Source: Promicromonospora citrea (GTDB lineage Bacteria; Actinomycetota; Actinomycetes; Actinomycetales; Cellulomonadaceae). Taken from it: a DNA stretch of 51,002 nt. The position numbers were made by a program, and so were the translations under genes. Below are positions 1,446 to 32,030 of the stretch, in pieces. The stretch spans positions 1 through 51,002 of the forward strand of contig NZ_JABEMG010000018.1 of assembly GCF_013004695.1 (NCBI RefSeq), given 5' to 3'. The notes beneath the pieces were generated by a model, which saw only the letters and a program-made list of their open reading frames with translations, was not told the origin of the DNA and searched no databases. Positions within the stretch are counted from its first letter, which is position 1; each line of letters opens with the position of its first letter.

Positions 1446-3484
1446 GCCGTCTTGGCCACGAGGGTGAGCACGTCGTACGCCGCGACCTGCTCGCCGTCCT
1501 GGTTGGTCACGTCGGCCTCCCAGCGCACCTCGCCGTAGTCGGCCGAGGTGCGTGGGGTGATCTGCTTGACCGTCAGGTGGACCCGGATGGTGTCGCCGAC
1601 CTTCACCGGGGTGAGGAACCGCAGGTTGTCGACGCCGAAGTTGGCCAGCACCGGCCCGGGCGCCGGGTCGACGAACAGCCCCGCCGCGAGGGACACCACG
1701 AGGTAGCCGTGCGCGACGATCCCGCCGAAGAACGGGTTGGCGGCGGCGGCCTCCGCGTCGGTGTGGGCGTAGAAGGTGTCGCCGGTCAGCTCGGCGAACT
1801 GCGTGATGTCCTCCTGCGTGACCGTGCGCGCCGCGGTCTCGATCGTGTCGCCGACGCGCAGCTCGGCGAGCGACCTGCGGAACGGGTGCACGTCCTCGAC
1901 CCGGCGGCGCGACCCGGTGGTCCACCGGCCCGTGATCGCGGTGAGCATGTCGGGCGAGCCCTGCACGGCGGTGCGCTGCATGTGGTGCAGGACGCCGCGC
2001 ACGCCGCCGAGCTCCTCGCCGCCGCCGGCCCGCCCGGGTCCGCCGTGCACGAGCATCGGCAGGGGGCTGCCGTGACCGGTCGACTCGGCGGCGTCGTCGC
2101 GGTCGAGCACGAGCAGGCGACCGTGCCACGGCGCGAGCCCGCGGGCGACGTCGCGCGCCACCTGCGGGTCGTGCGTCACCAGCGACGCGACGAGACTGCC
2201 GCGGCCGCGTGCCGCCAGCTCGACCGCCTCGTCGAGCGACCCGTACGTGAGCACGGTGCTGACCGGGCCGAACGGCTCGACGTCATGCGGCTCCGCGGCG
2301 CCGGGGCGGGCGCGCAGGAGCACGGGGGAGAGGAACGCGCCGCGCTCGGCGTCGGCCCCGACCACCTCGACGTGGGCGGGGTCGCCGTGGACGACGTCGG
2401 CCGAGGTGCGCAGCGCCTCGATCGCCTTGCGCACCTCGTCGCGCTGGGCGAGGCTCGCGAGCGCGCCCATGCGGACGTCGCCGTCGGCGGGGTCGCCGAC
2501 GGTGACGCGGTCGAGGCGCGCGCTGATCGCCGCGACGACGGTGTCCGCCATCGCCTCGGGCACGATGACGCGGCGGATCGCCGTGCACTTCTGGCCGGCC
2601 TTGACGGTCATCTCGGTGACGACGCCCTTGACGAACAGGTCGAGCTCGGGGTCGTCGGGTCGCACGTCGGGGCCGAGGATCGAGCAGTTGAGGGAGTCGG
2701 CCTCGACGCCGAGCCGCACGCCGCGGTCCAGCACGGACGGGTGCGAGCGCAGGATCCGCCCGGTGTGCGCCGAGCCGGTGAACGCCACGTGGTCCTGCTC
2801 GCCGAGCTCGTCCAGCAGCGTGCCCGCGCTGCCGCACAGGAGCTGCAGGCTGCCCTCGGGCAGGATGCCGGAGTCCGCGATCCGCCGCACGACCGCCTCG
2901 GTGAGGTAGGCCGTCTGGCTCGCGGGCTTGACGATCGTGGGCAGGCCGGCGAGGAAGGCGGGCGCGAGCTTCTCGAGCATGCCCCAGACGGGGAAGTTGA
3001 ACGCGTTGATCTGCACCGCGACCCCGGGCCGCGACGTGTACAGGTGCTGTCCGACGAACGTGCCGCCCTTGCCGAGCGGCTCCAGCGCGCCGTCGAGCAC
3101 GACGGTGTCGTCCGGCAGCTCGCGCTTGCCCTTGCTCGCGTAGCTGAACAGCGTGCCGATGCCGCCGTCGATGTCGACGTAGCCGTCGCGCCGTGTCGCG
3201 CCCGTGCGCAGCGAGAGCGCGTGGAAGTCCTCCTTGTGGGCGTTCAGGTCCAGCGCGAGCTCCTTGAGCAGGCTCGCGCGCTGGTGGAACGTCAGCCGGC
3301 GCACGGCAGGCCCGCCGACCTCGCGCGCGTACCGGACCATCGCGGCGAGATCGATGCCCGCGCTCGAGACGCGCGCCACCTCCTCGCCGGTGACGGCGTC
3401 CAGCAGGGGCTCGCCGTCGTCCGACCCGGCCTGCCAGCGCCCCGCGACCCAGCTCTCCAGCCTCGCGCTCGCTCGTGTGCTCAC
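1442..3484 (-). CDS. paaZ: PaaZ, bifunctional oxepin-CoA hydrolase / semialdehyde dehydrogenase
   Basis: A 680-residue protein, the normal length for PaaZ. The first ~510 residues are an aldehyde dehydrogenase domain with the catalytic Cys motif GQKCTA and the Glu motif EADSLN; the last ~135 residues are an MaoC-like hot-dog hydratase domain (GDTFYAHTD, FFGGIVAHGYLV). Known role: it opens the oxepin-CoA ring and oxidises the resulting semialdehyde to 3-oxo-5,6-dehydrosuberyl-CoA. I chose GTG at 3484 because GGGAGG lies just upstream; an in-frame ATG/GTG-type start at 3511 has no such site. It diverges from paaA and overlaps the downstream regulator. Confidence 0.93.
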   Translation of the reverse strand: MSTRASARLESWVAGRWQAGSDDGEPLLDAVTGEEVARVSSAGIDLAAMVRYAREVGGPAVRRLTFHQRASLLKELALDLNAHKEDFHALSLRTGATRRDGYVDIDGGIGTLFSYASKGKRELPDDTVVLDGALEPLGKGGTFVGQHLYTSRPGVAVQINAFNFPVWGMLEKLAPAFLAGLPTIVKPASQTAYLTEAVVRRIADSGILPEGSLQLLCGSAGTLLDELGEQDHVAFTGSAHTGRILRSHPSVLDRGVRLGVEADSLNCSILGPDVRPDDPELDLFVKGVVTEMTVKAGQKCTAIRRVIVPEAMADTVVAAISARLDRVTVGDPADGDVRMGALASLAQRDEVRKAIEALRTSADVVHGDPAHVEVVGADAERGAFLSPVLLRARPGAAEPHDVEPFGPVSTVLTYGSLDEAVELAARGRGSLVASLVTHDPQVARDVARGLAPWHGRLLVLDRDDAAESTGHGSPLPMLVHGGPGRAGGGEELGGVRGVLHHMQRTAVQGSPDMLTAITGRWTTGSRRRVEDVHPFRRSLAELRVGDTIETAARTVTQEDITQFAELTGDTFYAHTDAEAAAANPFFGGIVAHGYLVVSLAAGLFVDPAPGPVLANFGVDNLRFLTPVKVGDTIRVHLTVKQITPRTSADYGEVRWEADVTNQDGEQVAAYDVLTLVAKTA

Positions 3485-22206: not shown

Positions 22207-22427
22207 CCGGCGTGCTGGGGCGGCTCTCGCGGCCCGGTGTGTCATAGCTGCGGCAGAAATGTGCCTGTTCCGTGGCGCATCTGAGTGGTCCGTGCCACAC
22301 TGGCGCACGTTGCAGTGACGTACCAAGGCCACGTCCGCCGTGTCGTGAGCAAGTCGGGAAAGCATTGCGGCGCGGGGGCGGGCACAGGGCCCGCCGTCGG
22401 ATCCCGGACGGAAGGTCGAAGGACAGC

Positions 22428-22631
22428 ATGGCGCAGGGTTCTGTGAAGTGGTTCAACGCGGAGAAGGGCTACGGGTTCATCGCCCAGGACGGCGGCGGTG
22501 CCGACGTCTTCGTCCACTACTCCGCGATCCAGTCCAGCGGGTACCGGTCGCTCGAGGAGGCCCAGCGGGTCGAGTTCGAGATCACGCAGGGCCCGAAGGG
22601 TCCTCAGGCGGAGTCGGTCGTCCCGCTCTGA
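22428..22631 (+). CDS. Cold-shock protein
   Basis: 67 residues, full CspA length. RNP1 (KGYGFI) and RNP2 (VFVHYSAI) are intact, followed by [18 protein letters not shown]. Binds single-stranded nucleic acid as an RNA chaperone. The 221-bp gap upstream (22207-22427) has no gene and includes a GGGCGGGC...GCCCGCC hairpin just before the start region, consistent with a long structured leader of the kind csp genes often carry. The gene is followed by an unusual repeat array. Confidence 0.93.
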
Positions 22632-22705
22632 GGTGATCCGCGCGCGAGGCCGCTCTCCCCGAGGGGAGGGCGGCCTCCGTGCTGCCCCCGCCCCCATCCC
22701 CTCGC

Positions 22706-22855
22706 CGAGGTAGTCACCTGGCGAGGTAGTCACCCGGCGAGGTAGTCACAGGGCGAGGTAGTCACCCGGCGAGGTAGTCACTGGGGCGGGAGCGCTTGTT
22801 CCCGCCCCGGCCCTGACTACCTCGCCCTGTGACTACCTCGCCCTGTGACTACCTC
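22706..22855. repeat. 16-nt-period word array: five direct then three inverted copies of CGAGGTAGTCAC
   Basis: CGAGGTAGTCAC occurs at 22706, 22722, 22738, 22754 and 22770, exactly every 16 nt with 4-nt spacers. After a central GGGGCGGGA/TCCCGCCCC hairpin (22783-22791, 22800-22808) the reverse complement occurs at 22812 (first base changed), 22828 and 22844, again every 16 nt. The whole array sits between convergent stops at 22631 (csp) and 22862 (methyltransferase) and would fold into one long stem. Spacers vary while words are fixed. Confidence 0.9.
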
Positions 22856-22861
22856 GGCGGG

Positions 22862-23770
22862 TCAGGTCGGGGGCGGGGTGGGCAGCGGGGCGGCCGTGCC
22901 CGCGAAGGCGGCGGCGTCCTCGTCGATCAGGAGCGTCGCCGGGACCGCGAGGCTGCGCAGTGCCCGGCCGAGGGCGGGGTCGCGGAGCAGGGCGGGGGAG
23001 TCGGCGGCCTCGTCGTCCGGCAACGGGCGGACGGCGGCCAGCACCAGGTTGCCGTACCGCCGTCCCTTGAGGATCGCCGGCTCGGCGACGACGGCGAGCC
23101 GGCCCTGCGCGGTGGCGTCCGGCCCGAAGGCCTGCGCGAGGCCGGCGACCTCGCGCCGCGCCGTGGCCAGCGGCGGCCGGTCCGCGCAGTTGACGAGCAG
23201 CACGCCACCGGGGCGCAGCACGCGACGGGCCTGCTCGGCGAACCCCGTGCCGACGAGGTGGGCGGGCGTGCTGTCGCCCGCGAACACGTCGCGCACGACG
23301 ACGTCCCAGGACTCGTCGCGGGCACCGGCCAGCGCACGGGCGGCGTCGTCGGCACGCAGGCGCAGCAGGGGCGACCGGGGGAGGTCGAACCACTCACGCA
23401 CGAGCTCGAGGAGCCGGGCGTCCAGGTCGACGCCGAGCTGGCGGGAGCCCGGCCGCTCGTGCTCGACGTGCCGGGCGAGGGCGCTGCCGGCCGCTCCGAG
23501 GTGCAGCACGCGGAGCGGGCCGGGCGGAAGGAGCGCGAGGACGGCGGCCATCTGCTGCATGTACTCGAAGTCGAGGAACCCGGGGTCCGTGAGGTCGAGG
23601 CCAGAGCTCGGCACGCCGTTGACGTGCAGGGTCACTCGTTGCGGGAAGTCGGGGTCGCGGACCACCTCCGCGGTCCCGGTGTCGATCGGCACGGGTCCGG
23701 AGGGCAGCTCGGCGGGGAGTGTCAGTGGTGCGGAGGAAGATGGTCGGCGTCGGGCGGTGCGGCGGGCCAT
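22862..23770 (-). CDS. Spermidine-synthase-like methyltransferase-fold protein
   Basis: 302 residues. Rossmann SAM-type fold: VLHLGAAGSALARHV, acidic LGVDLDARLLELVREWF, then DVVVRDVFAGDSTPAHL and FAEQARRVLRPGGVLLVNCAD. It resembles the soluble spermidine-synthase-like proteins of actinobacteria, which often lack true polyamine synthase activity; DVFAGDSTPAHL takes the place of the catalytic DxxD region of SpeE. Function uncertain. Divergent from the SOS unit; start ATG at 23770. Confidence 0.75.
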   Translation of the reverse strand: MARRTARRRPSSSAPLTLPAELPSGPVPIDTGTAEVVRDPDFPQRVTLHVNGVPSSGLDLTDPGFLDFEYMQQMAAVLALLPPGPLRVLHLGAAGSALARHVEHERPGSRQLGVDLDARLLELVREWFDLPRSPLLRLRADDAARALAGARDESWDVVVRDVFAGDSTPAHLVGTGFAEQARRVLRPGGVLLVNCADRPPLATARREVAGLAQAFGPDATAQGRLAVVAEPAILKGRRYGNLVLAAVRPLPDDEAADSPALLRDPALGRALRSLAVPATLLIDEDAAAFAGTAAPLPTPPPT

Positions 23771-31407: not shown

Positions 31408-31878
31408 ATGGCTGCGATGACGGAAGGATTCGCGGGTCTGGGCCTGCTCCTCGGGACGTACACCCCGAAGCTGGACGAGAAGGGCCGCCTGATCCTTCCC
31501 GCCAAGTTCCGGGGTCGTCTGTCCAGCGGTCTGGTCATGACCAAAGGGCAGGAACGGTGCCTCTTTCTTCTCCCGATGGACGAGTTCCAGCAGATCTACG
31601 CGCAGATCCGGCAGGCGCCGGTGACGAGCAAGGCTGCACGGGACTACACGCGAAACTTCCTGGCGGGAGCGAGCGACGAGGTACCGGACAAGCAGGGCAG
31701 GGTCTCCATCCCGACGCACCTGCGCGAGTACGCCGGCCTGGATCGCGAGGTGGTCGTGATCGGGGTCGGCACCCGCGTGGAGGTGTGGGACGCACAGGCC
31801 TGGGCCACCTATCAGGAGGAGACCGAACCCGACTACATCGACCAGGCCGAGGAGATCTTCCCCGGGCTGAGCTTCTAG
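31408..31878 (+). CDS. mraZ: Transcriptional regulator MraZ
   Basis: 156 residues with two SpoVT/AbrB-like halves: [17 protein letters not shown] and [19 protein letters not shown]. It binds DNA repeats in its own promoter and regulates the division/cell-wall cluster. ATG at 31408 is 8 nt after AGGAGGT; an ATG at 31417 is possible. First gene of mraZ-rsmH-ftsL-ftsI. Confidence 0.95.
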
Positions 31879-32030
31879 GCCGGCCGTACGGTCAGGCCTC
31901 CTCCCGCAGGATCCGGCGCACTTCCCCGCCGCCGGAACCGTGCGGAGGGAGACCTGACCGGACGGCAGGGAGGCCGAGCGGGAGACGAGCAGGGGACGAC
32001 CACGACGACGACGCAGGAGAGGAGGCACCG

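Follow-up and report, generated by a model that had tools for sequence, protein, structure and literature searches.

The locus considered here raises the question of why a short word should be repeated with a strict 16-nt period, five times in one direction and then three times in the other, between two convergent genes of Promicromonospora citrea, a soil actinomycete. In the stretch of DNA analysed as a whole (51,002 nt, hereafter the window), word search confirmed the eight copies of CGAGGTAGTCAC that the initial annotation had reported, with five direct and three inverted words and a period of exactly 16 inside each arm; the 4 inter-word bases are variable, and seven copies are exact while one has one mismatch. 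The start given for the array was correct, but its end was not: the array reaches 22856, one base further, and thus spans 22706-22856. The central GC hairpin previously placed between two convergent genes was also recovered, the cold-shock gene being on the plus strand and the methyltransferase gene on the minus strand. Direct words start at 22706, 22722, 22738, 22754 and 22770, and inverted words occupy 22813-22824 (the copy with one mismatch, ...TCAG), 22829-22840 and 22845-22856. At no more than 2 mismatches the window contains 13 matches to the word, against a mean of 5.22 in shuffles of the window, none of which (0/100) reached 13, the largest count being 11. The features of this junction are as follows.

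22428..22631, plus strand: cold-shock protein gene, convergent neighbour (Pfam CSD)
22646..22677, plus strand: separate hairpin directly 3' of the cold-shock gene (from sequence; unscored by a simple terminator scan)
22706..22785, plus strand: left arm, five direct 16-nt units CGAGGTAGTCAC-NNNN (sequence, word search)
22783..22808, no strand assigned: central perfect 9-bp G+C-rich hairpin, stem 22783-22791 / 22800-22808 (sequence and folds)
22813..22856, minus strand: right arm made up of three inverted units, with one mismatch in the first (sequence, word search)
22862..23770, minus strand: methyltransferase-domain gene, convergent neighbour, with its stop codon 5 nt from the last word (gene call and domain search)

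Folded as RNA, the array region gave -146.9 kcal/mol on the plus strand and -139.6 kcal/mol on the minus strand (z -15.6 and -14.0, respectively). A terminator scan of 22400-23100 returned 0 sites, no U run was seen 3' of the array stem, Rfam gave no gathering-score match over the array, and phage and plasmid records gave no match to 22700-22862. The sole Rfam match in the window is an mraW RNA at 31878-31975. The congeners examined likewise have a hairpin at the place of the 22646-22677 one, in many cases accompanied by a T run; this run is absent from the P. citrea hairpin (22646-22690) and present in several congeners, e.g. G003, G007 and G008.

The search of the whole genome and of relatives that the initial annotation had proposed revealed that the word is not a local oddity and that its copy number varies, with 0 to 422 two-unit matches across 13 congeners. 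The P. citrea genome (4.96 Mb, 290 contigs) contains 430 matches to CGAGGTAGTCAC at no more than 1 mismatch, distributed as 214 and 216 on the two strands, whereas the word read backwards gave 5+1 = 6 matches in the same genome at the same cut-off. Of the 221 family genomes, 10 contain the two-unit pattern CGARGTAGNNNNNNRGCGARGTAG, all of them within Promicromonospora (10/13) and none among the 208 elsewhere in the family; the control for this pattern gave zero matches in the 221 genomes. Counts were highest in P. panici (G008, 422) and P. citrea (279), followed by P. iranensis (G004, 73), P. thailandica (G011, 64), G005 (28), G010 (26), G006 (25), G012 (17), G003 (3) and G002 (1), and the pattern was not found in G001, G007 and G009, the last of which is 83% complete. 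The array is therefore one member of a dispersed Promicromonospora repeat family. Antribacter (G014) has related hairpins with a different spacing, and in a further genus of the same family (G202, loci L222-L225) units of CGAGGTAGTGA follow one another with a 19-nt period in the same two-arm order. A match in Undibacterium umbellatum (L114) was discarded as probably due to chance, being a single hairpin with the second word absent in 8 kb. No description of this repeat family was recognised among the papers listed by searches of the open-access literature, and the papers listed as containing strings of the repeat letters are, by title, on unrelated subjects.

General anatomy was examined in 133 Promicromonospora elements, taken from stretches around listed matches (the first places per genome). 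The unit is 16 nt long, CGARGTAG-(TCA or AAC)-YNNRG, that is CGARGTAG followed mostly by TCA or AAC/GAC, three variable bases and RG; the first eight positions served to find the units and their uniformity is not independent. Word positions 9-11 are nearly uniform inside one genome, and positions 12-14 vary. A direct left arm and an inverted right arm were observed in 112 elements, a single arm in 21 and outward-facing arms in none. A stem is impossible in the 21 one-armed elements, some of which are truncated by contig ends or inserts; where a one-armed element has a called stop within 30 nt, the word is in the sense of the gene in 8 of 9 cases, as judged from the element list.

Adjacent spacers are identical in 24 of 71 cases in P. 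citrea, against 11% expected (G004, 4/21; G012, 0/6), and this sharing of spacers by neighbouring units points to tandem duplication of units. Clear mirror symmetry of spacers between arms was not seen (P. citrea, G000, 6/34, P 0.06; G004, 2/21, P 0.52), and spacer mirroring gives no support in these two genomes to the idea that a long stem is under selection. Beside the innermost word, pairing exceeded chance in two genomes, G004 (P 0.0006, n 18) and G012 (P 0.002, n 7), whereas G000 (P 0.30, n 22) and G008 (P 0.58, n 22) showed no such excess; for outer spacers, P was 0.07, 0.12, 0.04 and 0.47 in G004, G012, G000 and G008, respectively. Pooling of species lowers P (0.0066 and less) but mixes species differing in spacer make-up. 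At locus L189 of G011 (2060-3385), an AAC element is split: about 1.3 kb separates its two arms and contains a 348-aa open frame, which gives the impression of a gene inserted into the element; Pfam gave no match for this frame. The long loop palindrome around GCGCTGATCAGCGC is nearly the same in the elements at L031 of P. citrea and L179 of G005, which differ in dialect and stand at different junctions.

Placement was assessed on the 124 elements that lie outside called genes and have two called flanking genes according to a codon-usage caller, 9 of the 133 being dropped. Among them 79 are at convergent, 40 at tandem and 5 at divergent junctions, compared with 113, 323 and 85 for all called junctions of the same loci, elements included; since loci were chosen around listed matches, such context counts describe pattern-found elements, and convergent pairs are over-represented in the junction tally. 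Thus 119 of 124 elements occupy convergent or tandem junctions, and for 115 the outer word is at most 30 nt from a stop codon, the other 9 being beyond that distance. Inside this distance of elements there are 184 gene ends, of which 49 have their stop inside the element, and 46 of these stops are TAG, a codon that ends 98 of 566 genes over all calls. At the window junction, with frames read from the sequence, the methyltransferase gene of G008 terminates at the TAG of the repeat and the G003 version stops earlier. The word is rarely solitary: 100 listed of the 430 P. citrea matches fall in 37 places, four of which have a lone word (two IS-cut, one in a called gene and one isolated).

Gene ends devoid of elements are also often followed by hairpins when genes converge. 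In a fold survey of junctions of 30-300 nt, with counts worked back from fractions, z was below -3 in 15 of 20 element-free convergent junctions (median -4.1), as compared with 3 of 54 divergent and 37 of 137 tandem junctions, and in 58 of 61 convergent junctions with an element (median -10.9). Two junctions, selected since elements were already known there in at least three species, were traced through the genus. Each of the 24 assessable cases (11 of 13 genomes at one junction and 13 of 13 at the other, G001 and G009 not being assessable at the former) had an inverted repeat no shorter than 21 bp, inverted-repeat lengths being taken with up to 15% mismatches and without a shuffled control of their own. 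The sequences differ: some are arrays of TCA type, some are arrays of AAC type and others are unrelated palindromes. A stem that stays constant behind stop codons at these two junctions while its letters change supports a role as 3'-end hairpin. Among 12 species compared at the window junction, the best inverted repeat is as short as 9 bp and as long as 55 bp, so that a long stem is not needed there. At the thiolase/NhaA junction (L197, L198, L200 and L205), four congeners have another palindrome in common, CTCGACAAGCTCGACC, which was not found in other element loci; other junction palindromes were found at most once each in element loci, a common 8-mer aside, and are thus not shown to be repeat families.

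The word occurs in two dialects, and none of the 133 elements mixes them (87 TCA-type, 46 AAC-type). Genomes are mainly TCA or mainly AAC, the TC-type share of two-unit matches being 268/279 in P. citrea, 55/73 in G004, 10/17 in G012, 3/422 in G008, 4/28 in G005 and none in the other eight. Comparison of flanking proteins for 116 elements (11 from Antribacter), in which sampled elements were compared with other sampled elements only, gave 30 orthologous pairs with both neighbours and 5 with one neighbour. Different dialects were found in 15 of the 30 both-neighbour pairs, at nine distinct junctions. The window junction is a tenth such address, with TCA in P. citrea, AAC in G008 and a single AAC unit in G005; the other nine readable species have no element of this family there (12 readable, G009 unreadable). 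Trees of three and five genes placed P. citrea beside G011 and apart from G004 and G012, and a single clade of the TCA species (P. citrea, G004, G012) was rejected (AU p 8.5e-61, on an alignment of 3,900 bases from 12 species, G009 left out), which implies two or more changes or swaps of the dominant dialect. Among candidate routes, namely whole-element replacement, re-insertion at preferred sites and concerted change, the absence of mixed elements favours the first. We tentatively propose, while holding it to be rather doubtful, that the word may be the address code of a trans-acting factor or copying machine, other than a RAYT, which differs by species; a change in its specificity would switch the dialect genome-wide at the same gene ends, in either direction between TCA and AAC, and would have done so no fewer than two times within the genus.

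A search for a mover with PF01797, which covers RAYT and other Y1 transposases, gave no match in the 13 Promicromonospora genomes, and only two of 59 genomes matched, both in other families. This absence from the genus rules against RAYT as the mover, within the limits of the Y1 type. The self-copying palindromic repeat put forward at the outset is supported as a dispersed family with tandem growth, but the usual REP mover was not found in P. citrea and 12 congeners.

An insertion sequence with ends GGCGGATTCAA... lies inside the repeated word in P. citrea. All eight IS ends in the examined P. citrea loci abut the word at TAG, four joints reading ...CGAGGTAG and four ...TGACTA immediately before the IS, which agrees with a 3-bp duplication; in P. 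iranensis the IS 11-mer has a ninth match, with unrelated flanks. With the last 39 residues of the IS, the 8 listed of 135 records comprised five of the IS30 family, one of IS3 and two unannotated, and the short IS pieces gave nothing with NCBIfam and nothing above cut-off with Pfam.

L036, L040, L044, L051, L052, L230, L236 and L245, near contig ends, both orientations: IS30-like insertions in the word, TAG apparently duplicated

The P. citrea assembly is broken at those loci by the insertion. The IS30-like element is a passenger that targets the repeat, with no sign of moving it. Insertion sequences that target REPs are known (PMC1525189), and the insertion into a repeated word is similar; here, in contrast, the target is the TAG of a 16-nt unit in an actinomycete, and the likeness concerns the passenger rather than the repeat.

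Taken together, these observations make it fairly probable that the array belongs to a dispersed inverted-repeat family which acts at Promicromonospora 3' ends as a two-way hairpin, its units growing by tandem duplication and its elements being copied or replaced genome-wide. In most sampled copies, two inward arms of 16-nt units lie around a small hairpin, a few bases behind one stop or two convergent stops, and each entering transcript could form a very long stem. As a two-way 3'-end hairpin, the element would most likely stop or shield transcription from the neighbour and cap the mRNA 3' end. Units would multiply via tandem duplication, and copying or replacement of elements across the genome would leave mainly one word dialect in each. 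We infer that the elements may serve in termination, mRNA protection and insulation, and that they may spread. This explanation is supported by family size, gene-end placement, inward arms, strong folds, hairpins at element-free convergent junctions, kept stems and tandem growth. It is weakened by the one-armed elements (21/133), the spacers that are not clearly mirrored, the nine of 12 readable species without an element at the window junction, and the elements lying beyond 30 nt of a stop (9/124) or at divergent junctions (5/124). The missing U run and the cold-shock gene's own hairpin also count against it, as they do against the expanded bidirectional terminator suggested earlier, which otherwise agrees with the stop-codon-adjacent position of sampled elements and with the strong fold on both strands.

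Other explanations account for part of these data. A DNA- or RNA-binding protein, in line with the protein-binding array among the options of the initial annotation, could read the word at 16-nt steps, as a roadblock or as a gyrase or nucleoid site, with the dialect tracking the protein and the hairpin being a by-product of facing both genes. A uniform word at positions 9-11 with freer spacers, dialects that never mix within an element, and one-armed arrays with the word mostly in gene sense fit sequence recognition; nevertheless, unrelated palindromes occur at the same place in other species, so that the stem and not the word is constant, and we regard this explanation as unlikely. The repeat could also be a selfish, REPIN-like one without host function, tolerated behind stop codons since it supplies its own TAG. 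Its high turnover between species, from 0 to 422 two-unit matches within one genus, and the use of an element TAG by 46 of 184 nearby gene ends would agree with this, but the genus has no Y1 transposase in 13 genomes, phage and plasmid records gave no match, positions are often common to several species, and some hairpin is kept at the two traced junctions where the family is absent; such a purely selfish nature thus appears quite improbable. DNA uptake sequences occur as inverted pairs at gene ends and have species dialects, and many copies with species dialects are also seen here; copies arranged in 16-nt arrays, with the lone word in only four of the 37 places among the listed matches, make an uptake function very improbable. 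The two-way 3'-end hairpin remains our preferred reading.

Bidirectional intrinsic terminators lie between convergent genes and form a strong stem from either strand, with a U run following the stem. The array shares the two-strand stem and its location, but lacks the U run, has a far longer stem and belongs to a dispersed repeat family. In the BIMEs of E. coli, too, inverted units form mosaic arrays at gene ends, although the units themselves, their order and their sequence are different. The best-described REP-like repeats are those of proteobacteria, where they are accompanied by RAYT transposases; a comparable family is found here at gene ends of an actinomycete genus in which the Y1 transposase search was negative. 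GTAG-tagged REPs and REPINs are dispersed, often in inverted pairs, behind the 3' ends of convergent or tandem genes, with the repeat TAG used as stop codon (PMC3733652, PMC8049555), and the Promicromonospora elements resemble them in dispersal, inverted pairing, 3'-end location at convergent or tandem genes, GTAG motif and TAG stop. In contrast, each GTAG REP unit is described as a palindrome of 20-40 bp that has an unpaired GTAG at one end (PMC3733652), whereas the Promicromonospora unit has 16 nt, is not self-complementary and is not itself a hairpin, and its GTAG pairs with the CTAC of the other arm inside the stem, four further bases lying outside. A RAYT (PF01797), the partner in a REPIN or REPtron, was not found in the 13 genomes. 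As these two features of REPs, the hairpin unit with unpaired GTAG and the RAYT, were not seen, the elements are called REP-like and not REPs. Direct tandem arrays in each arm further distinguish them from GTAG REPs and REPINs, as do the two dialects at the same addresses; with such orthologous junctions, paired genomes could separate the purpose of the hairpin, the recogniser of the word and the copying agent.
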